From Pyropia yezoensis (lineage: Eukaryota; Rhodophyta; Bangiophyceae; Bangiales; Bangiaceae): 64,000 nucleotides of DNA. Of this stretch, positions 33,109 through 64,000 are shown piece after piece (position 1 is the stretch's first letter; the number at the start of each line of letters is the position of its first letter). The notes beneath the pieces were generated by a model. It made no database searches. It saw nothing but the letters and a program-made list of their open reading frames with translations, and had not been told where the DNA came from. The stretch spans positions 32,652,283-32,716,282 of the forward strand of contig CM020619.1 in assembly GCA_009829735.1 (NCBI GenBank). Direction: 5' to 3'. The position numbers and the translations under genes are program-made.

Positions 33109-36100
33109 TCAATCCTCTTGTTCCGCATCCGTTGCGGATGAACTCGGCTCGTCCCGAGGGTCTTGGTTGGCCCCATCCTCTTGGTCCTCCTCCGAGTCCG
33201 ACTCCAGAATCTTGCCGGCTCTGGCCACTGGAGTGCCCTCTATCCCGTTCCGTCGCGTGTAGGCACAGACATCCGCGATGGGTAGCCGGTTTGAGGGTTC
33301 CCAGGTATCAGCTGCCGGGTTAAAACCGAACCAGCGTACTCGCAGGTACAGGCGTCCGTCTCTCCAGGCACGGTCCACAAACTTGACGTAAACATATTCC
33401 CGACCTTCTTCTTGGGATAGCCAGGGTACTGCGGCCCGCTTGCGCCGGGTCAAGTCCCGTTGGCTTGGCGGTGGAGCTCGGGTGACATGGTCGCTGCTCA
33501 CGCGGTACGGGGAGCCATCCACGTCTAGAAGAAAGGTCCAACCGTCCGTATGCAGGATCTCATAAGGTCCATCCGTCTTCGAGTCCAGCTTCCCCCGGGT
33601 CTTGCTATGGTTGTCCACAAAAACCCAGTCGCCACCACCCAGTTCCTTGTTCTTTTCCCGAACGCCCTTGTCATAGCCCCGCTTGTATCGCTCCTGGGTC
33701 TTCGAGATTGACTCCTTGACTCTTGGGAGCAGGAGCTTCAGTTGTTCCAGGAACTCATCCTTTGCCTTGGGACCTGACTTCAGTGCAGGCTGGAGACCGT
33801 CTGGTATTCTTTCCAGGGAGAAGTTGGTCAGCCGCCTTGGGGTGACAAAGTCGAGTGGAGCGACCCCCGTTGTCCGGTGAACTCGGGAGTTGTAGGCTAG
33901 AGTGAGGACAGCCAGGAGCTCGTCCCAGTCTTCTTGGTGCTCCTCCACGTAGTGCCGTAGCATGTCTACTAGGGTCCGGTTAAATCGTTCCACCTGGCCG
34001 TTCGTTTGAGGGTGGTACGTCGTAGTGTACAAGTTCTTGATGCCCATCAGGTCACAGACTCCTTGGAAGAACAGGGATGCAAACTGGGGACCGTTGTCGG
34101 TTAAGACGGAGTCTGGAGGGCCTTAGGCAGCTATCCAGTACTCGCAGAAGGCTGACGTGACATCCAGAGCCGTGATGGTCCTCAGCGGGATTGCTCGAGT
34201 GAACTTGGAGAACCGGTCACATATGATGAGCAGGTATATGTTGCCACTGGATGTTTCAGGTAGGGGCCCCAGGATGTCCATGCTTAAGCTTGCAAAGGGC
34301 TCCGCCGCAGGGAATAGGCGAAGCTTAGAAGTCTTCTTCCTCTGGGACAACCGGTTCCTTGCACACGAAACACAAGCCTCCAGGTACTTATGGACGTCAC
34401 TGGCCATGGTTTCCCAGTAATAGTGTCGTCTCATGGAAGCATACATCCGATTGATACCAGGATGTCCGGCCTGGGGAGACGAGTGCTCCAGGCGTAGGAT
34501 GTCAGCTCGTAGGCCCCGGTATACGTAGACTTGAGTGGCCCCATCGAAGGGTGACACCCGTACTAGGAGTCCGTCCGTAGACTCGGAGAAACGACTGTTC
34601 CGGTTCAGGTCCATTTGGTGGCGAAGCTCCAAGCACTGAGGATCCGTCAGTTGTGCCTCCAGCATCCGGTGAATGGTCACCGGTTGATGAGCTTCAGGTG
34701 TCTCATACAGGGGAGCGTGCCAGCCACGTCCGACATTCGGGAGGATGAAGCAAGGTATTTCCTCCGGGATAGGACCGGTATCGGCTGCAGGAGTCTCCAG
34801 CCGGGACATGGTGTCGGCGCAGTGGTGCTCCCTCCCTGCTCTGGTGCACACCTTGTACTTGAACTCCGAAAGGCGTAGGCGCCACCGGGCGACCCTTCCT
34901 TGACTGCTGTCCATACATAGCAGCCACCTTAGGCTGGCGTGGTCCGTCCGGATGAGGAACTCTTGTCCTTCAAGATATGGCCGTAACAGGAAGCAAGCCC
35001 AGACGACTGCCAAGCACTCGCGCTCGGTCGTGGAATAGTTCTTCTCAGCTGGAGTCAAGACGCGACTGTAGTAGCCTATCGGGAGGAAGTGCCCATCAGG
35101 TTGCTGCTGGAGTAGTGAGCACCCCACCTGGACGCCACAGGCATCCGTCTCCAGAACAAACTGGCCCTCCCGCTTGGGTAACGCCAGTACTGGAGTGGTG
35201 GTCAGGTGCTTCTTGAGCTCTTCGAAGGCCGCGGTCTGCTTCTCGTCGAACACCGGGAGTTGTGCGGGAAGCTTCTTGCTGGTCAGCTTGGTCAGTGGCC
35301 GGGCAATCAGAGCATAGTCCCGTACGAACCGGCGATAGACGTTGCACATACCCAGGAAGCTTTTGAGTTCCGTCTGGGTTTTGGGTTGCCGTGCATGCCG
35401 GAGGGCCTTGATGTTCTTCTCATTGACTCGGAGCTCCCCCGGACTCAGCACGTGCCCCAGATACTCCACCTCAGTCTCAAACAGGTGGCACCTTTCGGCC
35501 TTGAGGGTAACTCCAGCCTTGGACAGGAGGGCCAGGACCTCCCGAAGGTGCTCCAGGTGTTCCGCTGGGGTCTTGGAGAAAACGATAATGTCATCCAGGT
35601 AGACCAAACATGATCTCCACCTTAGCCCGGACAGGATGATGTCGATGGCTCTTTGGAAGGTCGCCGGAGCATTGGTGCGACCAAAAGGAAGACGCTTGCA
35701 CCGGAATAGTTCCAGGTGGCACGTGAAGGTGGTCTTGTCCTTGTCCTCGTCAGCCAGAGGGATCTGCCAGTACCCGGCATTACGATCCAGCGTCGAGAAG
35801 AGGGTGGCATCACCAAGAAATTCGAGGCAATCATCCATCCGGGGTATCGGGTATACGTCCTTGACTGTCATCTCGTTCAGGCGCCGGTAGTCAACGCAGA
35901 AACGGAAGTGACCGCCGGTTTTCGGGACGACTACCACCAGGAAAGCCCACTCGCCATCAGACGGCTCGATACCATCCATCTTGAGCATCTTGTTAACCTG
36001 CTTCTCAATCTCATCCCGGCGATGAGGTCCAGCCCGATATGGTTGCATGTGCACTGGCTTAGCTTCCGGCTTGAGTTGAATCCGGTGTAGAGTGGCGTCC

Positions 36101-37203
36101 ATCTTGCCCAGCTCTCCCGACCACAGGTGCCGATATTCCTGGAGAAGCTTCTCCAGTGCCTCCTTCAAGTCGGGAGGGACATTTTCTTGCTTGACCTTCG
36201 GCATCCCGGGTGGTGCTTGTTCGGGTTTCGGAGTAGCGCTGCCAGCCTGCTCTTGTTTCGGAGGTACGTCTAAGGCCGTCAAGTTGGATGCCAGTTCTTG
36301 TTGCAGGTTCAGGAGGTCTTCCTTGCTCATAGCACGGGCGGATCCCCGGTAAGGCTCTGCTGTACCAACTCGGGTGCCCTTGGCGAGGGTTATTGGCTTC
36401 CGGCTCACGTTGACGATTAGCACCGAGAACGGGGTGTGCCTTTCTACCTTCTCGTGATGTCCGTGGGCCAAGTATAACCGGTGTTTCGCCAGAAATTCCT
36501 TACGTCCGTAGATCAGGCATTGACCTGCAATCCGGGTCGTTACTTGAACCTTGGTCTCCGAGCGAGGAGGTAGGAGCACCGGTTTGAAGAGAGTCAAGGT
36601 AGAGGGTGGGATGCGTTCCCTCTTGCTCTTGGCTACACGAACCTTGGCGTCCAGATGCTCCAATACCGGTGACACAAACCCATGGTTGAACTGGACCTTC
36701 CCTTCTCCGGGTAGGATGCTCTTGACATGCTGCTTCTGGAAGTCCCAGCCTAGGATGAGGGGGACTGATAGGGTCTTGACTACTAGAAAGGGAAAAAGCA
36801 TTGGTTCATTGTTGACATAGATGGCGACAGGAAGACGGCCAAGCGGTCGTAGGGTTTGACCCGAAGCGTCGACGATATGGGTCCGGGTAGGCGCTCTCCA
36901 GGAATGTCGACGCCAGCCCGGAGGTAACAGGTTCTCAGTGATGACGCTTGGTCCGGCTCCCGTGTCAACCACCGGCGTAACAGCTTGGGGGAGGCTATCC
37001 CCCACACGCATACGAGCATTAATCTTGAGGTTTTCTTTACGCAGGACGAGCAATGTCCCCTTGAACAAACAGGGTGTCCAGGCGGCTACCGGTTGAGCGA
37101 GTAACTGCCGTCCTTTCTCCCGGCACGCAAGGGGAGAACAGGTAGAAGTACCCTGCCGTCGGAGATTCGGGAAGACACTTGGGGAGAGCGCCTGCCCTAC
37201 TCG
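33109..37203 (-). pseudogene. pol: Pol polyprotein of chromovirus A, one premature stop
   Basis: The pol frame is -1 to gag, is open through the end of gag and is reached by a predicted frameshift at 37203-37209. Domains in order: aspartic protease (DTGAG, 36952-36966); reverse transcriptase with YLDD (35590-35601) and FCVDYRRLNE; RNase H (ETDACG, about 35140); integrase with HSSPQAGHPG...CVSCARN zinc-binding, the first Asp in MDILG (about 34270), second in TDNG (about 34096) and Glu in QVERFN (about 33985); and a C-terminal chromodomain (VKFVDRAW, LRVRWFGF, DTWEP; about 33250-33415). About 1364 codons. A TAA at 34123-34125, between the first and second catalytic Asp of integrase, stands where a Tyr is usual. 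It truncates this copy. No other break is seen. Confidence 0.93.
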
Positions 37204-38957
37204 TTTCCCGGGTCCGAGGAGTCCTTAGAGGTTTCGGTCTCCAGGTCAAAGTCCGTAGGAGCTTCTCTTGCCAGAGCCTCCGTGATGCTCTGTAAGGTTG
37301 CCACTCGGATTGCGTGTACCTGTGCCTGGTCCATCTTGGAGGGTGCTCGCCGGTCAGCCCAGTTGACCGACTTTGCAAACACCAGTCCTTGACGCTTGAG
37401 TTTCTCCTGGAGGTCCTTGGGAATGGTCGGGCACTGGTAGGACATGTGATCCTCCTTCTGGCACAGCCAACAAGACCGGAACCGCTGGTTCTTGACTTGC
37501 TTGGGGGCGACCAGGGATGGTTGCTCCCTGGAAACGAAGCCGCCCCACTTGTCCCCTGACCCCATGGGTGAGGGCTCGCCAACTGCGAGTACCGGTACAG
37601 GGCTATCACCTCCCTTATACTTGTCGGGTCCGGGTCGAACTCGCGACAACGGCTTGGGAGTTGATACCATGGGAGCTTGGAGGGCCCTGGCTTGCCGGTA
37701 CTTGCCCTGGGAGTAGGCCATCAACTGCTGGACGGTATGTTCTTGATGTTCCTGGTTGTAGTTCTCCGCATCCACTTGAAGATATTCAGGAAGCCCTTCC
37801 GAGAAGATCATCTTGAGCCTGTCCTCAGGGTAAACGTTGCCACAAGCATCGCTCATCTCCCGGACACGACGGGCGAACGCCTCTGGAGTCTCTTGTCTTT
37901 CCATGGTTGCCCGGTTCAGCCTGCCGACTGCTTTACGCAGAGAGTCCGCGTCAGCGTAGTTGGACAGGAGCCAGTTGACCGCCTCCGGATAACTCGCGAC
38001 GGTACGTCCGACAATGTGTCCGGCAGAGTCTGGTAGAACCTGTGCAAACCGCTGTTCCGCTTCTCCGGTCATGAAGTTAACCAGGAGGTAGAGAGCCTTG
38101 CCCTCGGACACATCGTTGTCATTGCATGCCTTGACAAACCGGCGCAGGAAGGCAAAGATAAGCGCCGGTCTCTTCCCGGAAAACTTAGGATGTCCCCCGA
38201 AGCTCGGCTGCATTCGCCGGTTCAGGGACGCCATCTTCTTGGCCATCTTCCGGGTGTAACCTTGGTCTTGGTTCTCCAGCCGGTAGTTACCCCAATTCGT
38301 GACCTTGTTCAGGGTGGCATCTCCCACTTGGTGGGCAGGGAAGTCAAACTCGACTAGCCTGCGCCGGGTGGGACCGGGAGATGCATCCCAATCATATCCC
38401 TCCTCAGAGCTGGAGGAACTGGTCTCGCTGGTGCTAGAGCGACGGCGATGACGCCGACGCCTTCGGCTGCTCCGGTTACCGGTCTTGGAGCTCCCCGCCC
38501 CATAGGATGCAAGGGGAGGAAAAGCTTGGCCGGTCCCAGGAGTCGAAGTCCCAGGAAAGCCCGTGGAACCAGTCGTAGCGGTGCCTCTGGCACTGCTAGT
38601 GCCCACAGGAAGAGGTGTATACACCCAGCTGCCATGTGTGGGTCCAGGAGTAAACACACCAGGGGCTATCCCTGGAGGTTGAGGAGTAGAACCGACAGGA
38701 GGGAGACGTCTGCTGCGAGCGGACTCAAACGCCGTTGACCCCGGGGTGGCTCCCACAGGAGGAACAGCCGGAGGAACGGGAGCAGGTGGTACTTGGCCGC
38801 CTGTGGACTCCAGTCCGCTACCGGATGTCACGCCCAGGTCTGCTTCACCCGTAGGGAGAACGCCGGGTTGGGCACCGTCCCCCGCGGTGACCAGGGATGC
38901 GTCAAGGGACGCGGGGTCTACCCCTTCGGGCACCGCCGTGCCAGGGAGGGTAGCCAT
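37197..38957 (-). CDS. gag: Gag of chromovirus A
   Basis: 586 residues from the ATG at 38957 (AACATGG); the open frame upstream begins with a GTG. The N-terminal 200 residues are Pro/Ser/Gly-rich and end in an R/S run. A capsid-like helical region follows (about 260-450: FAFLRRFVKACNDNDVSEGK, YPEAVNWLL, FARRVREM, IFSEGLPEYL). One CCHC zinc knuckle is present: C496-x2-C499-x4-H504-x4-C509. The protein packages element RNA and forms the particle. It ends DPGNE-stop, with the slippery heptamer in the last codons. The frame is intact. It is clearly homologous to the gag of element B in the FLRRF and knuckle regions. Confidence 0.92.
   Translation of the reverse strand: MATLPGTAVPEGVDPASLDASLVTAGDGAQPGVLPTGEADLGVTSGSGLESTGGQVPPAPVPPAVPPVGATPGSTAFESARSRRLPPVGSTPQPPGIAPGVFTPGPTHGSWVYTPLPVGTSSARGTATTGSTGFPGTSTPGTGQAFPPLASYGAGSSKTGNRSSRRRRRHRRRSSTSETSSSSSEEGYDWDASPGPTRRRLVEFDFPAHQVGDATLNKVTNWGNYRLENQDQGYTRKMAKKMASLNRRMQPSFGGHPKFSGKRPALIFAFLRRFVKACNDNDVSEGKALYLLVNFMTGEAEQRFAQVLPDSAGHIVGRTVASYPEAVNWLLSNYADADSLRKAVGRLNRATMERQETPEAFARRVREMSDACGNVYPEDRLKMIFSEGLPEYLQVDAENYNQEHQEHTVQQLMAYSQGKYRQARALQAPMVSTPKPLSRVRPGPDKYKGGDSPVPVLAVGEPSPMGSGDKWGGFVSREQPSLVAPKQVKNQRFRSCWLCQKEDHMSYQCPTIPKDLQEKLKRQGLVFAKSVNWADRRAPSKMDQAQVHAIRVATLQSITEALAREAPTDFDLETETSKDSSDPGNE
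37203..37209 (-). promoter_or_regulatory. -1 frameshift slippery site, element A gag-pol
   Basis: Minus strand reads CC G GGA AAC GAG TAG in the gag frame. G GGA AAC is a canonical X XXY YYZ heptamer, in phase and one codon before the gag stop. Slippage there enters the open pol frame. The same heptamer occupies the same place in element B. Confidence 0.85.
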
Positions 38958-39151
38958 GTTGGTCTCTTGACAGCCACAGTCCAGTTGCCTGCGTGTCCAA
39001 AGATCGCCAGACCACAAGAGAGGGGTTGGAGAGCCAGGAATGGGATTCCCGTGAACGGGTGCAAATAATTCCCTAACCACAGAAAAAGACAGAACAGGAA
39101 CAACCCAACCGCTGCTCCCAAATGTCTCTCAAAAAAACACTCCAATCATCC

Positions 39152-39170: not shown

Positions 39171-39741
39171 TGTGGTATAAAACTCGATCCTCTCAGACAC
39201 GTGTCAATATCCCTCGGGGGAAAGGGACAGGTAACACAGAAAGGGGAACTACGAGAATGGTATGCCTGTTGCCTCACGTGCCTGCTCGCAGAGCAAACAG
39301 ATACGCACGGTAGTGCACACGGGGAAGAGGAAAGCAAACGCGCAGTTGTCTTTTTCCTGAGGGCGCGGGCCAAGGGCGCCTCGCTGTCCCTCTTAACGTG
39401 CATCTGGGGGAGCCTCGGCACGTTGGCCAGGTAGCCCCCCCATAACCCCGAGTGGCCCCGACCCGAGTCTAACCTCGTCAGGTCGGGGGCCACTATCACT
39501 ACTAATTCTATTCCCACTCACTAATCTCACACTCAAATTCTCTCAAATCAAGTCCCTCACAAGTATGCAAAAACCCATCAGCAATCCCTCTCTCACGTGT
39601 GGATAGCGTAGTCCACCGCATCCCAGTGCCGGGCACGGGCCACGGCCGCCAACCATCACCACACGGCGGGCGTGTTCTGGCACCTGGTGCCCTCTGGTTG
39701 TAGTCCCGGGTCGGCGCCAAGTCGGGGCCAGGGATGCTACA
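39171..39741 (-). repeat. 5' LTR of element A
   Basis: 571 bp, four visible substitutions from the other LTR. It should contain the promoter for the minus-strand genomic transcript. Confidence 0.93.
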
Positions 39742-45647: not shown

Positions 45648-46116
45648 TGTGGCAGTATTGACCCCCAGGTAGGGGGGCAACACGTGCCATGCAAGGGGCG
45701 GCAGGCCACTAGCCTGATCCGTTCCTCCCCCTGCATTTGGGTCCATATTCCCTAAGTTTGGGATAGTTAGCTTAGTAGTAAATCCAACTTGGATTTGAGG
45801 GTCTTCTGCATTTATCGTTTTGAATTTTCGTGTGGCCCGGTGGGCAGGTGCTGGGGTGGGAGATTCTGAGTGGCGAGATTCTGAGTGGACCCTGGGGGGA
45901 TAAGGGGAGGGACAGCGGGGCTTGGCCCTGCGTCCCCGTCCCGACCAAGAAACTGTTGGACCACACACCATCCTCTTGTTTGTCCGTGGGGGGTTTGCCC
46001 CACAACAGGGACAGAGTGTGTGCGACTTGCACTTCTTCCGGTTCCCCCGACACGGGAGGCAGCCCTAGCACACCGCCCCAACTTGGGTGCCGTGTGTGCT
46101 TGTGGTTTTTGCCACA
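45648..46116 (+). repeat. 5' LTR of B1
   Basis: 469 bp, TGTGGCAGTATTGACC...GGTTTTTGCCACA. The start is fixed by comparison with 54601 and 63605, where upstream sequence diverges. The end is fixed by CCACA before the primer-binding motif, as in element A. It shares an inverted TG...CA tip and TGTGG/CCACA ends with LTR A. Confidence 0.85.
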
Positions 46117-46136: not shown

Positions 46137-46235
46137 CAGAGGTAAACTTTACCTCCGGGTGCACCCGGGTGTAGGGGGCCTTCTGTCTCAGAGGAACGGT
46201 GGTCTTGGACCGTGTCATACGGATCGTCAGCCAAC

Positions 46236-48182
46236 ATGGGTAGCTCGGACCCCCCGTCGTCCGGGGAGTACACGGGTGACGCGCGTACTTCAGTGCCTTT
46301 GAATACTGGTGAGACACAGGTGGGTTTACCTGGGGTCGCAGAGGGACTAGAGGTCCCTCAAGCCAGCAGGACTGGAAGTACGGGCGGGCAACAGGCCACC
46401 CCGACTCAGTCGGGAGTTCACTCGGGTGACACTTCTGATGTGGGTGGGCCGAAGTCTGGCCACCGCGTGGTATACTCAACGGGAACGTCCCAAGGGGTGA
46501 GGACTGTCCCCGCGGGTTCCACTCGGGTTGGAGCCAACTTTGGCTTGGAGTCGTCGCCAACTAGGCTTTCGGAGGACGGTGGACCTCCGTTGGTCGGCGA
46601 TGGGCTCGCGCCCATGCCCCCGGTTGAGACCCCTGAGGAACGTGGTTACCCCTCAGGTGGACTCCCGGAGGCGGACCGAGACTCAACTAGAGTCGTCAAT
46701 CCACTCCTCGCGGAAACTGTCCGTCGGGAGGCGACTAATGTGTTGCGGCTGACTTTGCCGGACCTGGTGGTCACGATGACGAATACTATTCTGAATCAGA
46801 TTGTGGCGAGTTTGCCAGATGGCCTTAATGTCCAGACCGGATTGGGGCTTTCGAGCCCGCAGGCGCAGGGGGAATCCCCCCTTACGCCTATCTCTGGTCG
46901 CCCCGAACTGGGGGCGACACCTGTGACTCCCAACGAGGGAGCCACACCATACTCGGTGGGGCGTACGCCCTTCACGGGGGAGTTCCCCCCGGAAACGCCG
47001 GCGGCTACACCAAGCGCGCCGCGCCGGACTACAGGCACTGAGAGTGAACTTACCCCAGTGCCACAGCGGCTGTTCCCTCAACGTGAGGAGCCGCCCAAGA
47101 TCCAGGTAGCCAACCCGGTCTACCAGAGGATCTTTGACTGTGAGACCTACGCCCTCCACAACAAGTCGGTGGCGTATGGTCCTGACCAGGCCCGAGCCAT
47201 GGGCCGTGCCAAGAAGAATGCACTTCATTCTTTTGGGCACAAAGCGGAGTGGGACGGAACTCCCCCCCTCCGTGTCTTTGAGTTCCTACGTCGTTTCACA
47301 AAAGCCTGTGACGACAATGCCATAAGTGAAGGCATGGCTTTTTACATGCTACAGGAGTTTACGAAGGGCGACCTACGGACAGAACTTATGTCCGTCATGC
47401 CCAGCTCCTCAAGTGGAGGCGCTGGGGAGGTGACGTCCTATTTGGAGCTCGTCAACTGGTTGTTGAGAGCCATGGTTGATGAGGCAGCGTTGGCTTCTCA
47501 AGTCGAGGAGTTTACGCAAGCCCATCAGGAAGAGGCGGAGGACGAGTTGTCCTTTGCGGAGCGAGTCCGTAAGCTCAACAATCTTTGTGGGTTTCTTCAT
47601 CCACAAGCTGTGGTGAAGAGTCGGTTTGTGGAGGGACTCCATTGGTCAGTCCGGATGGAGACCCGGGAGCATAACACTACCCGGGCGACCCTGGCCGAGT
47701 TGGCCAGGTTCGCCTATCGCAGAGGCGAGGCCTACCGCAAGTTGCGGGAGGAACAACGCCAGGAGCGTCAGGCCGAGTTGGCCAAGGAACGGGAGGAGGC
47801 GCGCCAGGCCAGAGAGTTGAGAGAGGCACGCCGAATCCGCAAGGAGAGGGTGGTAGCTGCCGTGGGAACTTCCCAGGGTATCCCTTCGTCTTCCCCAGTT
47901 GGGAAGACCCCTCCCGGACCGGACCATCGGTGTTGGAACTGCAACTCCGATGGTCACTGGGCATATGATTGCCCCAAGTTGAGTAAACGCATCCAACAAC
48001 TTGTTAGGAATGCGAGTAAAAAGTCGGCTACGAACGAAGTACGTTCACGCCGCGAGGGTGGGTCTCGACCGGTCGTTGCGGTCGCCACACCCTCGGCGGA
48101 GGAGGCGGACACGTCGTCCTCGGACTCGTCGTCTTCCTCCCCGCCCTCAGATTCGGACGCCAAGTCGGCGGGAAACGAATGA
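46236..48182 (+). CDS. gag: Gag of chromovirus B1
   Basis: 648 residues from the ATG at 46236. The first 270 residues are Pro/Gly/Thr-rich. A capsid-like region follows (VFEFLRRFTKACDDNAISEG, YLELVNWLLRAM, SRFVEGLHWSVR), then a charged coiled-coil-like stretch (ERQAELAKEREEARQARELR). One CCHC knuckle is present: C566-x2-C569-x4-H574-x4-C579. The Ser/Asp-rich tail ends AGNE-stop. The stop TGA overlaps an ATG of the pol frame (ATGA, 48179-48182), and the slippery heptamer lies just before it. The frame is intact, unlike its duplicate at 55256-57200. Confidence 0.93.
   Translation: MGSSDPPSSGEYTGDARTSVPLNTGETQVGLPGVAEGLEVPQASRTGSTGGQQATPTQSGVHSGDTSDVGGPKSGHRVVYSTGTSQGVRTVPAGSTRVGANFGLESSPTRLSEDGGPPLVGDGLAPMPPVETPEERGYPSGGLPEADRDSTRVVNPLLAETVRREATNVLRLTLPDLVVTMTNTILNQIVASLPDGLNVQTGLGLSSPQAQGESPLTPISGRPELGATPVTPNEGATPYSVGRTPFTGEFPPETPAATPSAPRRTTGTESELTPVPQRLFPQREEPPKIQVANPVYQRIFDCETYALHNKSVAYGPDQARAMGRAKKNALHSFGHKAEWDGTPPLRVFEFLRRFTKACDDNAISEGMAFYMLQEFTKGDLRTELMSVMPSSSSGGAGEVTSYLELVNWLLRAMVDEAALASQVEEFTQAHQEEAEDELSFAERVRKLNNLCGFLHPQAVVKSRFVEGLHWSVRMETREHNTTRATLAELARFAYRRGEAYRKLREEQRQERQAELAKEREEARQARELREARRIRKERVVAAVGTSQGIPSSSPVGKTPPGPDHRCWNCNSDGHWAYDCPKLSKRIQQLVRNASKKSATNEVRSRREGGSRPVVAVATPSAEEADTSSSDSSSSSPPSDSDAKSAGNE
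48170..48176 (+). promoter_or_regulatory. -1 frameshift slippery site, element B1 gag-pol
   Basis: In the gag frame: GC G GGA AAC GAA TGA. Six nt downstream a hairpin can form. CCGTTG at 48183-48188 pairs with CAACGG at 48210-48215. An inner GGGCT/AGCTC (one G-U, one bulged A) extends it to about 11 bp with a 10-nt loop. Heptamer, spacer and stem fit a programmed -1 site. Reinitiation at the overlapping ATGA is the alternative. Confidence 0.8.
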
Positions 48183-51100
48183 CCGTTGGGGCTGGTCGTC
48201 CGAAGCTCACAACGGCAGCCTCGGCCAAGTGGGCCAGGAGGACGAACCAACCGTGCCGGATATTGCGGCGACCTAAGGGAGTCCGCCCACCTCGGGTAGG
48301 ACTCCCCAAGAACGTAAACCCACGTCGGGTCATCGCGGTGCTGACGGGTGAGAACTTCCAGGTGGCTGGACGGGTGCAACTTGCCCCCGGCCGTGCATGC
48401 TGTACCCGTATCGTACTTGATACCGGGTCAGGAGCCTCCTTGATACGCAAGTCGCTATTACCAAAGGAGGTGAAGCTCCAACGCTGGAGGTCCAAAGCTG
48501 ACCATATGATTGACATCAATGGTGGGGTACTTCCCATCGTTGGTGCCGTGACCCTACCAACTAGGTTGGGGACCCATGAGGTCGACGTGACCTATGGCGT
48601 AGTTGAGAATATATCGGTACCCCTGCTTCTGGGTACCCCTTATGTTGTTACACAAGTGCCTTTGATTTGTGGCCCTGAGTACTGGGTCAAGTTGATGAAT
48701 GGGGAGACTATCCCCATCCTTGGTAAGGGAAAGTCTGTGGCTCCTGTGACAGTCTCACAGTCGAAGCCTGTTTGCTCTGTGAGGGAAGGGTTTACTGCTA
48801 CCCTGCGTTTAGCCCGCAAAGTCACGTTGTCCCCCAACTCGGTGGCGCACGTTGATGTTGTAACTGATTTTACGGGGAACGGGTTGGTGCACCCTCACCC
48901 CCGTCTTGCTCGCAAGCACCAAGTGCATGTTGCCCTTGGCACGATGGACTCCAAAGCCGGAGTCCCGTGGAGGATCCAGGTGATGAACCTGAGCCCGACG
49001 CCCAAGTACTTCAAGTCGGGAGCCAAGCTCGGCTATATCGACCAACACGAGGGACCGGTAGTAGCGGTCACCCTCAACGCGGGCGCAAGTAGCGACCCGA
49101 AGTCCGGAAAGGAGAAGCATCAAACCAAGTCGGCCGCCTCTCCTCGACCCCATGTGAACATGGAGGGTGTCCCCCCCAGGTTGAGGGTTCAAGTTGAACG
49201 CCTCTTGGACCAATATCACAAGCTGTGGGATGGTCAATTGGGACTCATGAGAGCCACCCAACACCGGATCGAGTTGAAGCCCGGTGCACCCCCTATACGC
49301 CAACAACCGTATAGGGGAGGACCTCGTTCAAGGGCCCTCGTTAAGGAGCAAGTTGCTCGCATGGAGGCCCTCGATGTGATCGAGGCCACCAACGCCGAGT
49401 GGGCGAGTCCGGTGGTTATCGTCCCCAAAGTTGATGGGACCCCCCGGTTTTGTATCGACCACCGTAAGCTCAACGAGAGCACGGTGAAGGACAGTTATCC
49501 CCTACCTAGGATGGATGACTGTCTGGACTCTCTGGGGGAGGCAAACGTGTTCTCTACCCTGGACTGTAACGCGGGGTACTGGCAAATTCCCATTGCCCCG
49601 GAGGACAGGCATAAAACTACCTTTACCTGTCACTGTGGTACTTACCAGTGCAAGCGCCTACCGTTTAGTCTGTGTAACGCGCCGGCAACTTTCCAGCGCG
49701 CTATGGACATGATTCTGGCCGGAGTACGGTGGCAGAACTGTCTTGTGTACCTAGACGATATCATTGTGTTCTCCCGAAGTTCGGAGGAACACATTGGCCA
49801 TCTTGGCCAGGTGTTCAAGCTACTTGCTGACGCCGGTGTGTCACTGAAGGCGAGTAAGTGCCACCTCTTTACTCAAGAGGTGGAGTACTTGGGACATGTT
49901 GTCCATCCGGGGCGTCTCAGTGTTAAAGAGAAGAACTTGAGGGCCATTCGTAAGGCTCAGTACCCCCGGACCCAGACCGAGATGAGGAGCTTCCTCGAGA
50001 TGTGTAACGTGTACCGACGTTTCACCAAGGGCTTCGCCAAGGTGGCGAAGCCGTTGAATGAGCTAGTGAGCTCAACGCTACCGAAGAACCTGCCTCCCCC
50101 AAGTCGGGTGGAGCAGGAATCCTTTAAGACTCTTCGGGACCTTCTGCTGAAGCCCCCCATCTTGGCTATTCCCAGGTTGGGAGGCCACTACATCCTGGAT
50201 GTGGACGCTAGCTACGACCAACTTGGTTGTGTGTTGCTTCAGCAGCAGCCGGACAAGGAGTACTTGCCGGTGGGATACTTTAGTAAGGGGCTGAACTCGG
50301 CCGAGAAGAACTACGGAGTCACCGAGTTGGAAGGACTCGCAGTGGTGTGGGCGGTGACGTCACTTCGTCACTACCTGGAGGGTGAGAAGTTCCTCATCCG
50401 CTGTGACCACCGCGCGTTGCAGTTCATCTTTAAGACGGACTGTACGAACACTCGTCTCAACCGGTGGAGGGTGCGACTGGCACCCTTCAACTTTGACATT
50501 GAGTACCGACCTGGCAGGCAACATGCCCTTGCCGACGGCCTCTCTCGGGTACCTACCGAGGGGCTGGACACTAACCCAGTCGATGAGGACATCCCCATCG
50601 TGGGGGTAGTCACGCGCTCGGGTCAGGCGTTGAACCCCGAGGCGCCAGGGAACAAGAAGTACTTGCCCCTGTCCCTGGACGAGGTGGTGAAGGCCCAGGC
50701 CGAGGATCCCTTCTGGAAGTCGCAGAGGGATATACTGGATACGGTGGTTGAGACGCGCTTCTTTCTGGGAGACGATGGCCTCCTCATGAGGAGGGGGGTA
50801 TTCCAGGGGACCGAACAACTTGTCGTCCCCGCATCCCTCAAGGACAGTATCCTTGAGAGGGAGCACAACGCTCCCACGGGTGGACACCTGGGGTCTAGTA
50901 AACTGTACCAGACCCTGAGGACCAGGTACTACTGGCCGTCCATGGTGGTGGGACATCTACAGTTGGGTGGCTGCCTGCACAAGTTGTGCACAGAATCGTC
51001 TGATGGAACGGCGGCCTAGTACGGCTATGCTATTGTTCCCGGCCAAGGAGCCCTTCGCCGCGTTGGCGATGGACATCCTTGGGCCACTGCCCGTGACCGA

Positions 51101-52167: not shown

Positions 52168-52279
52168 GGGAAGGCCGAGTAACAGTGCCAAGGAGAGTGC
52201 TTCAAGTCGAAGTGGTACGCAGAGTGGCTTTTAACTACAGCCCTAACCCTCACACTCTCACAACAAAGGCAGCTGCCAA

Positions 52280-54262
52280 CTAGGCACGCATGCTAGACTC
52301 TCCCACTCCACGGCCCTCGCCCTCACGTGGAGGCGAGCGGCGAGACCCACGCCGATAACGGTCTCCACTTGTTGGAGGGGGCGGCGGCTCCAAGTCGGAG
52401 CCGTCGCGTCCTCCACGGTCGCGCAAGTGGCGCCGACCGTGGCCACTCTTCTGCCTGGTCTTGCGCGCAAGTTTGCGACGCAGACGCTGGACAGACTCCC
52501 GTCTCCGACGGGGTAGAGGACTCCGAAACGGAGCAAGACAACTCGTCTTCCGATACGGAAGGAGAGCGCCGCGAGTGTCGGCGACGACGGCGAGGAGGCG
52601 AGTAATGCCCGGCTCGCGCGACGTTTGGCCACGCCCAAGTGGGGCTGGCTGGGGCATAATAGCCCCCAATGCGAGCCAACTCGGGCTGTCATAAACTCCG
52701 CCACCGACTCGCACTCGCGGTCATAAACTCCGCCACCGACTCGCAAACTCGCGTCGCCCACTGGCAGTACGAACGCGCTCCTCAAGTTGAGGAAGTCTCG
52801 GAACTCTGTAGGGTTGCGGTCGGACGCGGCCAACCAGGAAATGGTGCGCACCAAATACGTGGTGATCATCACTCTGAGGTTAGAGGCGTGGGCGGCCAAC
52901 ACCAACTTGGGGTATACCGTCAGGAGGGTGGCCCCCAAGTTGGGGGACACCGGGGTGGAAGACTCCACGGCCACGCTGATCGGGATGTTCCCGTGAGGTT
53001 GGAAAGGAACAGGAGGAAGCGGAGGGGCCCGCCGAGGTGGCGGTACCCGGGTTGTAACTGCGACCCCCGACTTGGGGCCCCCGCAGTGGGTTGAGTCATA
53101 TGGTCATCATAGGACGGCACGGCCATAACTATGGGCTTGTCCGGGGTGGCGCAGTGTGGCGATCCACCCCCGGGGCATACGGGTAGTCCCCGATGCCCAA
53201 CCCCTCTCGTAGGACCACACGGCCGTCGTGAAGTTCACGAGCGACCCACACGAACTGGCGAAGTGCGCCATCGTCCTTGGGCCCACGAGTGGGCGGCGCA
53301 ACTTGTGCTCAATGCTCTCCCACTCGATAAACTTATGGAGCCGGAGCATCTCCTCAAGTAGAGTGAGTTGTCCTGATGCACCCCTCAGCAACTAGCTGAG
53401 GGGTGAGCTGTTCCAAACCTTGGAGGAGCCGGAGGGGAGATGCCAGAGCATCCCCGCCGCTGAACACAGGACACCCAGGTCGACATGACCTCGAGGAGCC
53501 ACTGGGTGGCCAACATGGCCCACACCAGGTGATCAGGGGCAGCCGTCAACATGACGGAGCCGAAGTGGTCAAGCAACCGTGGCAACAACGCCGGGAACCC
53601 GTAGGGGACCTCAACTTGAGGCCACCACTCGGCTTCTTCGGATAGTACTGCTCCTTACTGGCAGCAGACTGTTGAGGAAACTCAAGTTGAGCCGAGGTCA
53701 CCAAGTAGGGACCTCGCCGGAAGTCTTTCTCCATCCGCACATCAAAGTGATGAGTGTGCGGATCGGCCTCGTGGAGGTACGGTGGGCGAGTTGCCACAGC
53801 GTCCCACGTGAAGGTCGGCAAGTCGCCGGGACCCGGGATAGTTCCCCCGCGGTCCACCATGGCCTTGGCACGCTGAACGTCCTCAACCTCCTCATCGTCC
53901 AGGAAGGCAAACTGGTCCGTCCTGAAGCCGGCAGGGAACCCGACCCTACGGGGATACTTCTCCCGTAGGCGGTCCCATACCCGGCCCATCGCTGCGCCAA
54001 GTCGGCCACAGCGAAGAACAGTCAGCCCCTCCTCATAGAGAGGCCAAGCGGGGTAAAACCACCGCCCCAAGGCCTCACGCGGGACAACTTGTCCCGCCTC
54101 CGGGGGAGACCCCGCCGTCAACCCAAAGCCGGGTGACGCGGGAGTCCCGTCCCCCGGAGCGATCGCGGAGCCCCCGCCGGAAGTCCCGGCGGGTGCTGCC
54201 CCGTAGGAGGTGTCCTCCATGCGCTCGTCAAGAGAGTCCGTCTCCACTCCCGGAGTCGCCAT
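52280..54262 (-). pseudogene. Antisense ORF of B1, broken by single-base indels
   Basis: Counterpart of the intact ORF at 61290-63266. The 5' part (54262 to about 53600) reads correctly from the same ATG (MATPGVETDSLDERMEDTSY). Downstream, several one-base gains and losses at short homopolymers scatter the text over three frames to the stop at 52280. The differences from the second copy are almost all indels, as in the adjacent pol end. Confidence 0.8.
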
Positions 54263-54587
54263 GGCTCTCCCCAAGTTGGGGAGAGACGCTCTGGCTATCG
54301 CAGCACGAGACCCGCCTCGAGTTGAGGGGGACTCGGATCGTGGGTATACGGGTGGCCTCCCCAGCGTGGGGCGGCCCAGTGGAAGGTGAAGGGGAGGTGG
54401 TGGTGATGGTGAAGTGTGAACTGAGGAGAGCAAGCTGCCGAGTGGGCAAGCTTGAGGAGAGGGGCGGTCAACGTGACCGCCTCCACATCCGTGTTACGTA
54501 CTCGATGGGGGACAGCAAGTCGCGCCCCCAACGCCGAGACGTGCGTTTACGCACCCCCTCACAGGGCCGACCGGGTCGGTCGGAACT

Positions 54588-54600: not shown

Positions 54601-54754
54601 TGTGGCAGTATTGACCCCCAGGTAGGGGGGCAACACGTGCCATGCAAAGGGCGGCAGGCCACTAGCCTGATCCGTTCCTCCCCCTGCATTTGGGATTCCC
54701 TAAGTTTGGGATAGTTAGCTTAGTAGTAAATCCAACTTGGATTTGAGGGTTTTC
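54601..54754 (+). repeat. LTR between B1 and B2, cut by the assembly gap
   Basis: The first 154 bp of the LTR, then the N run. At two diagnostic places (GCAAAGGGCGG and GAGGGTTTTC) it matches the LTR at 63605, not the one at 45648. It lacks five bases (TCCAT) present in both others. Confidence 0.85.
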
Positions 54755-57200: not shown

Positions 57201-60200
57201 CCGTTGGGGCTGGTCGTCCGAAGCTCACAACGGCAGCCTCGGCCAAGTGGGCCAGGAGGACGAACCAACCGTGCCGGATATTGCGGCGACCTAAGGGAGT
57301 CCGCCCACCTCGGGTAGGACTCCCCAAGAACGTAAACCCACGTCGGGTCATCGCGGTGCTGACGGGTGAGAACTTCCAGGTGGCTGGACGGGTGCAACTT
57401 GCCCCCGGCCGTGCATGCTGTACCCGTATCGTACTTGATACCGGTCAGGAGCCTCCTTGATACGCAAGTCGCTATTACCAAAGGAGGTGAAGCTCCAACG
57501 CTGGAGGTCCAAAGCTGACCATATGATTGACATCAATGGTGGGGTACTTCCCATCGTTGGTGCCGTGACCCTACCAACTAGGTTGGGGACCCATGAGGTC
57601 GACGTGACCTATGGCGTAGTTGAGAATATATCGGTACCCCTGCTTCTGGGTACCCCTTATGTTGTTACACAAGTGCCTTTGATTTGTGGCCCTGAGTACT
57701 GGGTCAAGTTGATGAATGGGGAGACTATCCCCATCCTTGGTAAGGGAAAGTCTGTGGCTCCTGTGACAGTCTCACAGTCGAAGCCTGTTTGCTCTGTGAG
57801 GGAAGGGTTTACTGCTACCCTGCGTTTAGCCCGCAAAGTCACGTTGTCCCCCAACTCGGTGGCGCACGTTGATGTTGTAACTGATTTTACGGGGAACGGG
57901 TTGGTGCACCCTCACCCCCGTCTTGCTCGCAAGCACCAAGTGCATGTTGCCCTTGGCACGATGGACTCCAAAGCCGGAGTCCCGTGGAGGATCCAGGTGA
58001 TGAACCTGAGCCCGACGCCCAAGTACTTCAAGTCGGGAGCCAAGCTCGGCTATATCGACCAACACGAGGGACCGGTAGTAGCGGTCACCCTCAACGCGGG
58101 CGCAAGTAGCGACCCGAAGTCCGGAAAGGAGAAGCATCAAACCAAGTCGGCCGCCTCTCCTCGACCCCATGTGAACATGGAGGGTGTCCCCCCCAGGTTG
58201 AGGGTTCAAGTTGAACGCCTCTTGGACCAATATCACAAGCTGTGGGATGGTCAATTGGGACTCATGAGAGCCACCCAACACCGGATCGAGTTGAAGCCCG
58301 GTGCACCCCCTATACGCCAACAACCGTATAGGGGAGGACCTCGTTCAAGGGCCCTCGTTAAGGAGCAAGTTGCTCGCATGGAGGCCCTCGATGTGATCGA
58401 GGCCACCAACGCCGAGTGGGCGAGTCCGGTGGTTATCGTCCCCAAAGTTGATGGGACCCCCCGGTTTTGTATCGACCACCGTAAGCTCAACGAGAGCACG
58501 GTGAAGGACAGTTATCCCCTACCTAGGATGGATGACTGTCTGGACTCTCTGGGGGAGGCAAACGTGTTCTCTACCCTGGACTGTAACGCGGGGTACTGGC
58601 AAATTCCCATTGCCCCGGAGGACAGGCATAAAACTACCTTTACCTGTCACTGTGGTACTTACCAGTGCAAGCGCCTACCGTTTAGTCTGTGTAACGCGCC
58701 GGCAACTTTCCAGCGCGCTATGGACATGATTCTGGCCGGAGTACGGTGGCAGAACTGTCTTGTGTACCTAGACGATATCATTGTGTTCTCCCGAAGTTCG
58801 GAGGAACACATTGGCCATCTTGGCCAGGTGTTCAAGCTACTTGCTGACGCCGGTGTGTCACTGAAGGCGAGTAAGTGCCACCTCTTTACTCAAGAGGTGG
58901 AGTACTTGGGACATGTTGTCCATCCGGGGCGTCTCAGTGTTAAAGAGAAGAACTTGAGGGCCATTCGTAAGGCTCAGTACCCCCGGACCCAGACCGAGAT
59001 GAGGAGCTTCCTCGAGATGTGTAACGTGTACCGACGTTTCACCAAGGGCTTCGCCAAGGTGGCGAAGCCGTTGAATGAGCTAGTGAGCTCAACGCTACCG
59101 AAGAACCTGCCTCCCCCAAGTCGGGTGGAGCAGGAATCCTTTAAGACTCTTCGGGACCTTCTGCTGAAGCCCCCATCTTGGCTATTCCCAGGTTGGGAGG
59201 CCACTACATCCTGGATGTGGACGCTAGCTACGACCAACTTGGTTGTGTGTTGCTTCAGCAGCAGCCGGACAAGGAGTACTTGCCGGTGGGATACTTTAGT
59301 AAGGGGCTGAACTCGGCCGAGAAGAACTACGGAGTCACCGAGTTGGAAGGACTCGCAGTGGTGTGGGCGGTGACGTCACTTCGTCACTACCTGGAGGGTG
59401 AGAAGTTCCTCATCCGCTGTGACCACCGCGCGTTGCAGTTCATCTTTAAGACGGACTGTACGAACACTCGTCTCAACCGGTGGAGGGTGCGACTGGCACC
59501 CTTCAACTTTGACATTGAGTACCGACCTGGCAGGCAACATGCCCTTGCCGACGGCCTCTCTCGGGTACCTACCGAGGGGCTGGACACTAACCCAGTCGAT
59601 GAGGACATCCCCATCGTGGGGGTAGTCACGCGCTCGGGTCAGGCGTTGAACCCCGAGGCGCCAGGGAACAAGAAGTACTTGCCCCTGTCCCTGGACGAGG
59701 TGGTGAAGGCCCAGGCCGAGGATCCCTTCTGGAAGTCGCAGAGGGATATACTGGATACGGTGGTTGAGACGCGCTTCTTTCTGGGAGACGATGGCCTCCT
59801 CATGAGGAGGGGGGTATTCCAGGGGACCGAACAACTTGTCGTCCCCGCATCCCTCAAGGACAGTATCCTTGAGAGGGAGCACAACGCTCCCACGGGTGGA
59901 CACCTGGGGTCTAGTAAACTGTACCAGACCCTGAGGACCAGGTACTACTGGCCGTCCATGGTGGTGGACATCTACAGTTGGGTGGCTGCCTGCACAAGTT
60001 GTGCACAGAATCGTCTGATGGAACGGCGGCCTAGTACGGCTATGCTATTGTTCCCGGCCAAGGAGCCCTTCGCCGCGTTGGCGATGGACATCCTTGGGCC
60101 ACTGCCCGTGACCGAGGAGGGCAACCAGTACCTCCTGGTCATCTGTGACCGCTTCACGAAACTTACGCGAGCGATCCCACTGGCAGAGATCACGGCCATG

Positions 60201-61178
60201 TCGGTCGTGTCAGCCTTCCTAGATCACTGGGTTGCCGCGTATGGCATCCCAGATAGTACACTATCGGACAATGGACCGCAATTTGCGTCTGTACTGTTTC
60301 AGGGAGTGCTGGATATGTTGGGGGTTAAGGCAAACTATGCCACCCCCTACCACCCACAAACTAATGGGCAGGTGGAGCGCTTCAACAAAACTATTGTTAG
60401 GCAGCTACGCCACTATGTGAGTGAGCACGTAAAGACGTGGGACCAATACATTTCTATCCTTACTACTGCCTACAATTCGCAGGTATACTCATCTACAGGG
60501 GAAGTACCCCTCGCTTTTGTGACCCCCCGTCGCGTGCGGTCTATTGCCGTGCGGCGGTCGCTCTCAACTAGGGAGGATGTTGGCAGTACGCCTACTCCTA
60601 CTGAGAGTAAGGCGGAGTTCGCCGCTAGGCTTGAAAACCTCATCCCTAAAGTCAGGGCTGAGATGGACAAAGCACAAAAGCGCTACAAGCGTACCTTTGA
60701 CAAAAAGGTGCGCAATGCTAAACATGTCCCCGAGCAGGGTGACTGGGTGCTGGCACACTCGCACACCCCAACTGGGGGTAAGCTGGTATTCCAGACGAAG
60801 GGACCGTACCAGATCCTTCGTACTGATGGGCGGCGCTTCACCATCGAAAGTGACGATGGGGTCCGCACAGTGAACGGACAGGACGTGGTCAAAGTTGCAC
60901 CACCGCCTGCAGGAGACCCAGCTTGGGCGCGTGCGTTGGAATCGTGGCGCCTCCCCTCACTGCCTGCGGCCAAACAGGGCCCACAGGAGTACGTGTTCGA
61001 TAAGTTCATCGACCACGGATGGGATGAAGACACTGACCGCCTCATGTTGAGGGTGCGTTGGTTTGGCTACGAAGCCAAGGATGATACGTGGGAGTATGTG
61101 GAGGACCTTCCCGCTGAGAAGGTCCGGGCGTACTGTGCCCGGAATGAAATAGACCGTAACAGCCCTCCCTCAACGTGA
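57194..61178 (+). pseudogene. pol: Pol polyprotein of B2, two single-base deletions
   Basis: A lost G in the protease motif (GATACCGGTCAGG, about 57445) and a lost C (AAGCCCCCATC, about 59170) break the frame. From 59178 to the stop at 61176-61178 it is open and gives the complete 3' part that B1 lacks: RNase H; integrase (HNAPTGGHLG...CTSCAQN, MDILG, SDNGPQF, QVERFN); a GPY-like linker (GPYQILRTDG); and a chromodomain (YVFDKFIDHGW, LRVRWFGYE, DDTWEYVEDL) near 60985-61140. The terminal chromodomain places the element among chromoviruses, whose chromodomain directs integration to marked chromatin. Confidence 0.9.
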
Positions 61179-61289: not shown

Positions 61290-63266
61290 CTAGGCACGCA
61301 TGCTAGACTCTCCCACTCCACGGCCCTCGCCCTCACGTGGAGGCGAGCGGCGAGACCCACGCCGATAACGGTCTCCACTTGTTGGAGGGGGCGGCGGCTC
61401 CAAGTCGGAGCCGTCGCGTCCCTCACGGTCGCGCAAGTGGCGCCGACCGTGGCCACTCTTCTGCCTGGTCTTGCGCGCAAGTTTGCGACGCAGACGCTGG
61501 ACAGACTCCGTCTCCGACGGGGTAGAGGACTCCGAAACGGAGCAAGACAACTCGTCTTCCGATACGGAAGGAGAGCGCCGCGAGTGTCGGCGACGACGGC
61601 GAGGAGGCGAGTATGCCCGGCTCGCGCGACGTTTGCCACGCCCAAGTGGGGCTGGCTGGGGCATAATAGCCCCAATGCGAGCCAACTCGGCTGTCATAAA
61701 CTCCGCCACCGACTCGCAACTCGCGGTCATAAACTCCGCCACCGACTCGCAACTCGCGGTCGCCACTGCAGTACGAACGCGCTCCTCAAGTTGAGGAGTC
61801 TCGGAACTCTGTAGGGTTGCGGTCGACGCGGCCAACCAGGAAATGGTGCGCACCAACGTGGTGATCATCATCTCTGAGGTTAGAGGCGTGGGCGGCAACA
61901 CCAACTTGGGGTATACCGTCAGGAGGGTGGCCCCCAAGTTGGGGGACACCGGGGTGGAAGACTCCACGGCCACGCTGATCGGGATGTTCCCGTGAGGTTG
62001 GAAAGGAACAGGAGGAAGCGGAGGGGCCCGCCGAGGTGGCGGTACCCGGGTGTAACTGCGACCCCGACTTGGGGCCCCCGCAGTGGGTTGAGTCATATGA
62101 TCATCATAGGACGGCACGGCCATAACTATGGGCTTGTCCGGGGGTGGCGCAGTGTGGCGATCCACCCCCGGGGCATACGGGTAGTCCCCGATGCCCAACC
62201 CCTCTCGTAGGACCACACGGCCGTCGTGAAGTTCACGAGCGACCCACACGAACTGGCGAAGTGCGCCATCGTCCTTGGGCCCACGAGTGGGGCGGCGCAA
62301 CTTGTGCTCAATGCTCTCCCACTCGATAAACTTATGGAGCCGGAGCATCTCCTCAAGTAGAGTGAGTTGTCCTGATGAGCACCCCTCAGCAACTAGCTGA
62401 GGGGTGAGCTGTTCCAAACCTTGGAGGAGCCGGAGGGGGAGATGCCAGAGCATCTCCCGCCGCTGAACACAGGACACCCAGGTCGACATGACCTCGAGGA
62501 GCCACTGGGTGGCCAACATGGCCCACACCAGGTGATCAGGGGCAGCCGTCAACATGACGGAGCCGAAGTGGTCAAGCAACCGTGGCAACAACGCCGGGAA
62601 CCCGTAGGGGACCTCAACTTGAGGCCACCACTCGGGCTTCTTCGGATAGTACTGCTCCTTACTGGCAGCAGACTGTTGAGGAAACTCAAGTTGAGCCGAG
62701 GTCACCAAGTAGGGACCTCGCCGGAAGTCTTTCTCCATCCGCACATCAAAGTGATGAGTGTGCGGATCGGCCTCGTGGAGGTACGGTGAGCGAGTTGCCA
62801 CAGCGTCCCACGTGAAGGTCGGCAAGTCGCCGGGACCCGGGATAGTTCCCCCGCGGTCCACCATGGCCTTGGCACGCTGAACGTCCTCAACCTCCTCATC
62901 GTCCAGGAAGGCAAACTGGTCCGTCCTGAAGCCGGCAGGGAACCCGACCCTACGGGGATACTTCTCCCGTAGGCGGTCCCATACCCGGCCCATCGCTGCG
63001 CCAAGTCGGCCACAGCGAAGAACAGTCAGCCCCTCCTCATAGAGAGGCCAAGCGGGGTAAAACCACCGCCCCAAGGCCTCACGCGGGACAACTTGTCCCG
63101 CCTCCGGGGGAGACCCCGCCGTCAACCCAAAGCCGGGTGACGCGGGAGTCCCGTCCCCCGGAGCGATCGCGGAGCCCCCGCCGGAAGTCCCGGCGGGTGC
63201 TGCCCCGTAGGAGGCGTCCTCCATGCGCTCGTCAAGAGAGTCCGTCTCCACTCCCGGAGTCGCCAT
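61290..63266 (-). CDS. Antisense accessory protein of chromovirus B
   Basis: 658 residues from the ATG at 63266 (the frame is open to 63437 without an ATG). It lies between pol and the 3' LTR, transcribed toward pol from the LTR side; its stop is about 110 bp from the pol stop. The N terminus is Gly/Pro-rich. An ordered region (about 60-370) has LRCGRLGAAMGRVWDRLREK, QFAFLDDEEVEDVQRAKAM, a YLVTSAQLEF block, YYPKKPEW, VEVPYGF, a hydrophobic helix (WAMLATQWLLEVMSTW), LWHLP and LHKFIEWESIEHKLRRP. The rest is Pro/Ser-rich and ends in an R/S-rich tail (RRRRRHSRRSPS), like an RNA-binding or nuclear-localised tail. It is homologous to the antisense ORF of element A. No database family recognised; it could be an RNA-binding or regulatory factor. 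Confidence 0.8.
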   Translation of the reverse strand: MATPGVETDSLDERMEDASYGAAPAGTSGGGSAIAPGDGTPASPGFGLTAGSPPEAGQVVPREALGRWFYPAWPLYEEGLTVLRCGRLGAAMGRVWDRLREKYPRRVGFPAGFRTDQFAFLDDEEVEDVQRAKAMVDRGGTIPGPGDLPTFTWDAVATRSPYLHEADPHTHHFDVRMEKDFRRGPYLVTSAQLEFPQQSAASKEQYYPKKPEWWPQVEVPYGFPALLPRLLDHFGSVMLTAAPDHLVWAMLATQWLLEVMSTWVSCVQRREMLWHLPLRLLQGLEQLTPQLVAEGCSSGQLTLLEEMLRLHKFIEWESIEHKLRRPTRGPKDDGALRQFVWVARELHDGRVVLREGLGIGDYPYAPGVDRHTAPPPDKPIVMAVPSYDDHMTQPTAGAPSRGRSYTRVPPPRRAPPLPPVPFQPHGNIPISVAVESSTPVSPNLGATLLTVYPKLVLPPTPLTSEMMITTLVRTISWLAASTATLQSSETPQLEERVRTAVATASCESVAEFMTASCESVAEFMTAELARIGAIMPQPAPLGRGKRRASRAYSPPRRRRRHSRRSPSVSEDELSCSVSESSTPSETESVQRLRRKLARKTRQKSGHGRRHLRDREGRDGSDLEPPPPPTSGDRYRRGSRRSPPREGEGRGVGESSMRA

Positions 63267-63604
63267 GGCTCTCCCCAAGTTGGGGAGAGACGCTCTGGCT
63301 ATCGCAGCACGAGACCCGCCTCGAGTTGAGGGGGACTCGGATCGTGGGTATACGGGTGGCCTCCCCAGCGTGGGGCGGCCCAGTGGAAGGTGAAGGGGAG
63401 GTGGTGGTGATGGTGAAGTGTGAACTGAGGAGAGCAAGCTGCCGAGTGGGCAAGCTTGAGGAGAGGAGCGGTCAACGTGACCGCCTCCACATCCGTGTTA
63501 CGTGATCGATGGGGGACAGCAAGTCGCGCCCCCAACGCCGAGACGTGCGTTTACGCACCCCCTCACAGGGCCGACCGGGTCGGTCGGAACTGAGGAGAGG
63601 GGAG

Positions 63605-64000
63605 TGTGGCAGTATTGACCCCCAGGTAGGGGGGCAACACGTGCCATGCAAAGGGCGGCAGGCCACTAGCCTGATCCGTTCCTCCCCCTGCATTTGGGTC
63701 CATATTCCCTAAGTTTGGGATAGTTAGCTTAGTAATAAATCCAACTTGGATTTGAGGGTTTTCTGCATTTATCGTCTTGAATTTTCGTGTGGCCCGGTGG
63801 GCAGGTGCTGGGGTGGGAGATTCTGAGTGGCGAGATTCTGAGTGGACCCTGGGGGGATAAGGGGAGGGACAGCGGGGCTTGGCCCTGCGTCCCCGTCCCG
63901 ACCAAGAAACTGTTGGACCACACACCATCCTCTTGTTTGTCCGTGGGGGGTTTGCCCCACAACAGGGACAGAGTGTGTGCGACTTGCACTTCTTCCGGTT
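63605..64000 (+). repeat. LTR of B2, cut by the window edge
   Basis: 396 of an expected 469 bp. Differs from the LTR at 45648 by a few substitutions (GCAAAGGGCGG, GTAATAAATCC, GGGTTTTC, ATCGTCTTG). The element end and target duplication lie outside the window. Confidence 0.88.

Follow-up and report, generated by a model that had tools for sequence, protein, structure and literature searches.

A conserved antisense gene between pol and the 3' LTR of Ty3/gypsy retrotransposons in the red alga Pyropia yezoensis

Homologous open reading frames (ORFs) occupy the same antisense place in four retrotransposon families (A, B, C and D) within a single genome, that of Pyropia yezoensis. These frames almost certainly represent a genuine, conserved protein-coding gene of red algal Ty3/gypsy elements. 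The explanation that we favour, with a probability of about 0.6 for the whole of it, is a third gene, convergent with gag-pol, which occupies the interval from pol to the 3' LTR and encodes an accessory or regulatory product. The starting point was a 64-kb window (the whole stretch of DNA that was analysed, 64,000 nucleotides, located at C2:32652283-32716282), in which one copy of A and two of B (B1 and B2) have the following features.

30092..30662, minus strand: 3' LTR of A, 571 nt (LTR pair 99.3% identical)
30847..31047, plus strand: A antisense gene, first piece, ending at an in-frame stop absent from copy L012
31048..31911, plus strand: A antisense gene, second piece, with the conserved core, ending after a frameshift absent from L012
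31824..32963, plus strand: A antisense gene, third piece, in a different frame
33109..34122, minus strand: A, remainder of the integrase and a weak chromodomain match (E 0.0019, below the Pfam cut-off), separated by a stop from the preceding pol ORF in this copy
34123..37224, minus strand: A pol, with protease, RT, RNase H and the start of the integrase (ORF and domain matches)
37197..39128, minus strand: A gag (zinc knuckle, E 0.019, below the cut-off)
39171..39741, minus strand: 5' LTR of A (LTR pair 99.3% identical)
45648..46116, plus strand: 5' LTR of B1
46146..48182, plus strand: B1 gag, with a zinc knuckle
48020..51019, plus strand: B1 pol
52199..54489, minus strand: B1 antisense gene, approximate extent, with many frame changes relative to B2
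57439..59310, plus strand: first open part of B2 pol, which has a frameshift in this copy
59145..61178, plus strand: B2 pol, with RNase H, integrase and a weak chromodomain match (E 3.3e-4, below the Pfam cut-off)
61290..63266, minus strand: B2 antisense gene, ATG to stop, 658 aa, homologous to the A, C and D antisense proteins
63605..64000, plus strand: 3' LTR of B2, 469 nt aligned, running to about 64073 past the window end

The order protease, RT, RNase H and integrase was present in both A and B, with strong matches for the last three domains and weak ones for the protease (RVP, E 0.001, in A; Asp_protease_2, E 0.04, in B). The chromodomain matches reached 20.9 bits in B and 18.5 bits in A, against a cut-off of 25.1 bits, and none was listed for D. 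The elements that host the antisense gene are probably Ty3/gypsy chromoviruses. In A and B2, whose LTRs were located, the antisense ORF lies between pol and the 3' LTR, opposite to gag-pol. The layout is convergent: in B2, 111 nt lie between the pol end at 61178 and the antisense stop at 61290, and the corresponding distance in A is 145 nt. At its other end, the antisense ATG stands 184 nt (A) or 338 nt (B2) from the 3' LTR. The LTRs of B at 45648-46116 and 63605-64073 are 98.7% identical over 469 nt. Just inside the 5' LTR, A (39120-39170, minus strand) and B (46117-46150) have TTTGGTGGAGCAGC in common, which is presumably the same tRNA primer site. A run of exactly 500 N (54755-55254) falls at the junction of B1 and B2, inside the LTR region common to both copies, so that their tandem order may result from scaffolding.

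Other repeats and mobile sequences were observed in the same window. Immediately next to A, at 28723-30000, lie tandem repeats of about 90 and 102 bp, and a tandem repeat of about 150 bp occurs at 20272-21550 and again, 21 kb away, at 42687-43438. An inverted repeat at 394-746 has arms of 143 nt, 96% complementary, around a 67-nt spacer. A 672-codon frame at 22439-24457 matches the transposase families Plant_tran / DDE_Tnp_4 (E 3.1e-55), and a 1326-codon frame at 5922-9902, with a match to a Ulp1-type protease (Peptidase_C48, E 4.8e-9), is perhaps part of a DNA transposon.

A preliminary description of this DNA had reported long antisense ORFs at 30847-32963 in A and at 61290-63266 in B2. The B2 gene is indeed a single open frame, and it is the only intact antisense copy among A, B1 and B2: in the ORF listing of the window, a minus-strand frame of 735 codons spans 61290-63497, with the ATG at 63266. 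The A interval turned out to be the span of a gene that is broken into three pieces, first by the in-frame stop at 31045-31047 and then by a frameshift near 31900. Damage of this sort does not characterise the family, since A-type copies elsewhere are uninterrupted at both sites, as in L012, whose frame has 779 codons, 705 of them after the first ATG of the conserved part. When the best 136 of 1894 candidate matches to the 31048-31908 piece were scored, the 135 copies from elsewhere had open frames of 461-854 codons, and a stop fell inside the 287-aa piece in 4 of the 136. The match to B2 spans 1977 bp, against 1944 bp in 36 of the other 39 listed copies, 1943 bp in two and 1945 bp in one; the extra length fits an 11-residue in-frame duplication found in B2 and absent from the copies L002 and L003 and from the database protein P0001. 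In B1 (45643-54694) the antisense region is rich in indels although B1 and B2 agree at 99-100% in the stretches that were sampled, and these frame changes look like an unpolished assembly rather than ageing.

The proposal that the A and B antisense genes are homologous was confirmed. BLASTP gave an E value of 5e-7 with the window piece of A (23-26% identity between the A and B proteins) and of 4e-8 between L012 (A) and L002 (B; 23% over 166 aa), and no score as high was reached by any of 1000 local shuffles of the B sequence. When the frames of 40 aa or more from both strands of A and B were all compared, the antisense by antisense pair reached E 1.4e-7, and the next best among the pairs listed had 7e-4, which became 0.63 after low-complexity masking. 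The similarity score is significant by BLASTP, by the all-frame comparison and by shuffling. By contrast, DNA similarity between A and B over the region is negligible (best match 17 nt). Among the motifs said to be shared, YYPK, P-x-GF and LW-x-LP do fall within the aligned core of A and B, but YYPK is absent from C and D. The basic C-terminal tail that had been described as common is a feature of B and not of the family; in B it is Arg/Ser rich, with 29 Arg in the last 120 residues and a pI of 11.7; A and C have much less, with 13 and 12 Arg.

The length of these frames says less than their homology. In 1000 dinucleotide shuffles, no frame was as long as the 724 codons of B or the 779 of A, and the best shuffles gave 499 and 664 codons; since frames of this size arise by shuffling, ORF length alone in GC-rich DNA is only moderate evidence. 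A chance ORF is ruled out by homology and by the frame-specific constraint presented below, not by length.

The check on whether related elements carry the ORF revealed it in further families, C and D. The genome searched comprised 107.5 Mb in 11 contigs, and an exact RT motif taken from the A and B pols occurred 1641 times (839 and 802), with no occurrence of the reversed control. At 30 RT-motif loci that were sampled, pol was closest to A in 10 and to B in 19, and the remaining one (L051) belongs to the new family C. Spacing between tandem RT motifs was about 6.2-6.6 kb in the short-spaced RT families. With 1641 RT motifs in a 107-Mb genome and 29 of 30 sampled loci A- or B-like in pol, the counts suggest that much of the retrotransposon load of this seaweed carries, or once carried, the antisense gene.

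Family C has a pol that is 57% identical to that of B and 44% to that of A, the A-B pol identity being 42%. Its RT motif in L051 lies at C1:170688 on the plus strand, and the antisense frame is found 2.5 kb downstream on the minus strand. There, in L077, it has 876 codons; a frame change divides this copy into two parts, which were compared individually. The C antisense protein is 37% identical to that of B over 288 aa (E 2e-44) and 25% identical to that of A (E 7e-8). A further C-related copy, E, is known from its antisense frame alone, which has one stop and is 54% identical to the C core (48% over 518 aa).

Family D was found in L078, where pol lies on the minus strand (38% identical to B pol over 619 aa) and the antisense frame, which starts in L082, lies on the plus strand (24% identical to the B protein over 230 aa, E 9e-10). 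The position relative to gag-pol was seen in L078 on the pol side. Among the 71 D antisense and 70 D pol copies listed, at least 8 pairs of neighbours were identified by eye, the two members being on opposite strands and separated by 409-434 nt. The D frame is stop-free in 55 of the 71 antisense copies listed and contains a stop in 16 (best 71 of 2615 candidates). In the majority of the 70 D pol copies listed, the matched stretch contains one TAA, against none in the L078 copy; the pol frame of L078 may run past the usual end of the family. In shuffle tests, 0 of 1000 shuffles were as good for A-B, A-C, B-C and D-B. The A-D and C-D similarities alone fell short of significance, since 96 (A-D) and 22 (C-D) of 1000 shuffles did as well, so that membership of D in the set is based on its match to B together with its position. 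For conservation of the C-terminal region, C-E alone was significant (57 of 1000 shuffles as good for A-D, 66 for B-C and 115 for B-E).

To what extent selection acts on the antisense frame was estimated between and within families. Between C (L077) and C' (L081), dN/dS was 0.38 over 424 codons and 0.33 over 177 codons, and between C' and E it was 0.38 over 502 codons. In a six-frame control, the antisense frame had the lowest ratio (0.38 and 0.40) and the fewest stop codons (0 and 3); the sense frame that shares its third codon positions gave 0.49 and 0.44, with 10 and 23 stops.

Within family A, we analyzed 36 rows representing 35 copies (L030 and L043 overlap), the window copy, L009 and L039 being left out. 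Variants present in at least three rows were 36 nonsynonymous to 97 synonymous, against a neutral expectation of 2.04 nonsynonymous per synonymous, and included no stop; private variants were 135 to 74, against 2.29 expected, with 7 stops. Since the A copies had been ranked by protein similarity, we recounted in the C-terminal part, outside the ranking, over 29 rows (L010-L038). Shared variants there were 20 to 49, that is 0.20 of neutral, and private ones 70 to 46 plus 5 stops, that is 0.70 of neutral. In this recount the sense frame sharing third positions was also low, at 0.23, though it is interrupted by stops. The same count on pol gave 0.10 (A) and 0.08 (B) of neutral for shared variants, using 8 of the 10 A-like loci (with 'shared' meaning at least two rows) and 14 of the 19 B-like loci. 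For B, the 8 antisense rows had no variant in at least three rows, and the private variants were 23 to 12 (1.92 against 2.3), which is near neutral and makes the test uninformative for B. An upstream control stretch, with 7 to 6 shared variants, was too small to use.

Because shared variants are strongly synonymous and private ones near neutral, purifying selection acts on the antisense protein in the propagating lineage of A, and its frame is relaxed after insertion. This pattern is as expected for a gene that is needed by transposing copies and not by inserted ones. Retention of the ORF resembles that of other element genes, with a constraint of about 0.2 of neutral compared to about 0.1 for pol. 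Overall, ratios far below 1 between C, C' and E, inherited A variants at about 0.2 of neutral, and homologues in families A-D bear out the earlier view of a conserved reverse-strand gene.

Database searches agreed with the statement that the protein matches nothing known. No Pfam match of note was obtained for the antisense proteins, no credible match in NCBIfam or PHROGs, no homologue among the solved structures of the PDB, and no PADLOC match for three pieces of the window. A pattern search of IMG/VR gave 127 stretches, and none was a relative. Protein searches, each scoring about 8000 candidates that shared most words, returned four close relatives, all near A or B, and no host-type homologue; among the matches listed these are P0001 (94% to B2), P0002 (98% to A), and P0003 and P0004 (71-72% to B), P0004 being a EukProt gene model. 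AlphaFold2 models were uninformative (mean pLDDT 33.7 and 30.2, from alignments of 6 and 7 sequences). The best-shared core consists of P-x-GF followed by a stretch predicted to be helix-prone and ending in L[WF][HF]LP. This core (P-x-GF, then L..FG) may resemble TRP28-type proteins. The TRP28 profile PF04195 itself had no match at E <= 10 among five antisense proteins, nor in the genome at the same threshold, where no candidate passed the first screening.

Two kinds of element protein were considered as relatives. An Env-like protein is unlikely, as the gene is antisense and five sequences showed no clear membrane segment, their highest 19-residue hydropathy mean being 1.54. Neither BLASTP nor profile comparison related the protein to the Gag of A or B (best E 0.069 and 0.63).

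Concerning function, a regulatory or accessory role for this non-enveloped antisense protein seems to us about an even bet. We favour this role since the protein is kept, is neither Gag-like nor membrane-like, and has precedents in Grande and Retand. Translation of the sense genomic RNA cannot yield the protein, which would require an antisense mRNA of its own. With the ATG 184 or 338 nt from the 3' LTR, a start upstream of it, in or near that LTR, would be the simplest source. Because selection acts on copies that went on to transpose, the product should help the encoding element or its close kin. It would act on the nucleic acid of the element or on the host control of the element, a role comparable to those proposed for Retand TRP28, the Grande gene23 proteins and retroviral antisense proteins.

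The main rival, which we consider improbable though worth weighing, gives the protein a counter-defence role, in which it would block silencing by the host, such as RNA interference directed against double-stranded RNA from convergent transcription. The convergent layout would create such RNA, and PMC7264820 discusses the effects that antisense transcripts may have through double-stranded RNA. The antisense protein also diverges faster than pol, with 23-26% identity against 42% for A-B and 37% against 57% for B-C. However, it shows no similarity to any family in the databases searched, and the ratios within and between families indicate constraint, not positive selection.

A structural or RNA-packaging component of the particle, in the manner of a gag-like helper, appears slightly less probable still. 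The Arg/Ser-rich tail of B would suit such a protein, as would the keeping of the gene in four families, but the tail is not common to A and C, similarity to Gag is lacking in the comparisons with A and B, and a bulk particle protein would need to be made from an antisense mRNA. It is very unlikely that the gene was captured from the host, or is cargo of one burst of copies, and not a gene of the element. The absence of a known homologue and the finding of the gene here in one species could be read in that way; nevertheless, families with 38-57% identity in pol carry it at the same antisense position, selection maintains it in family A, and the best 8000 or so candidates of each protein search held the four close relatives and no host-type homologue. 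Finally, regulation by the antisense transcript itself, with the ORF as an incidental by-product of GC-rich DNA, is largely refuted, since constraint is specific to the antisense frame and the proteins are homologous between families without convincing DNA similarity, even if dinucleotide shuffles give frames of up to 499 and 664 codons and the window contains many long overlapping frames.

Taking up again the reading as a third element gene, we would extend it, tentatively, to ambisense elements in which this gene is obligatory and both strands have to be transcribed for transposition. On this view the gene would predate the split of A-D and might correspond, in red algae, to the antisense genes of Retand and Grande, with which it perhaps shares a distant ancestry. 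The elements appear to depend on a product read from the opposite strand, and families A, C and D offer ready material for RNA and protein tests.

The precedent in plant Ty3/gypsy elements to which the preliminary description had pointed is right for Grande, RIRE2, Retand and PvRetro13, which carry additional antisense ORFs between pol and the 3' LTR according to PMC7264820, and the same source adds the fungal element Boty. Most known antisense accessory genes of LTR retrotransposons come from flowering plants; PMC7264820 and PMC11963269 describe their roles as undetermined. The literature searched, subscription papers excepted, yielded no account of antisense genes in the retrotransposons of red algae. 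The kind of gene is already known, and what is new here is the red algal host, the probable chromoviruses that carry it, and that no TRP28 was found.

Retand is like the Pyropia elements in having an antisense ORF between pol and the 3' LTR that is kept across the lineage, with a function that PMC11963269 presents as unestablished. In one survey, TRP28 was encoded antisense in 97% of Retand clusters, and a regulatory or predicted DNA-binding role has been proposed for the protein (PMC11963269). Retand differs in being described as a non-chromovirus limited to flowering plants (PMC11963269), and in carrying TRP28 (PF04195), whereas the Pyropia antisense proteins have no PF04195 match at E <= 10. 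Grande of maize, with gene23, and RIRE2 of rice have the gene in the same place and orientation, as compared by description only (PMC7264820); the Grande gene23 product is reported as a nuclear protein, with an upstream promoter of its own (PMC7264820). Boty of Botrytis cinerea, also compared by description only, has the same antisense place outside plants, in a fungus (PMC7264820). HBZ of HTLV-1 and other retroviral antisense genes lie at the 3' end of a retroelement and are read from the 3' LTR (PMC7264820), but HTLV-1 is a virus with env, and the likeness is one of functional analogy only. Next to these systems, the red algal set provides an independent case for asking why retroelements place a gene on the wrong strand.
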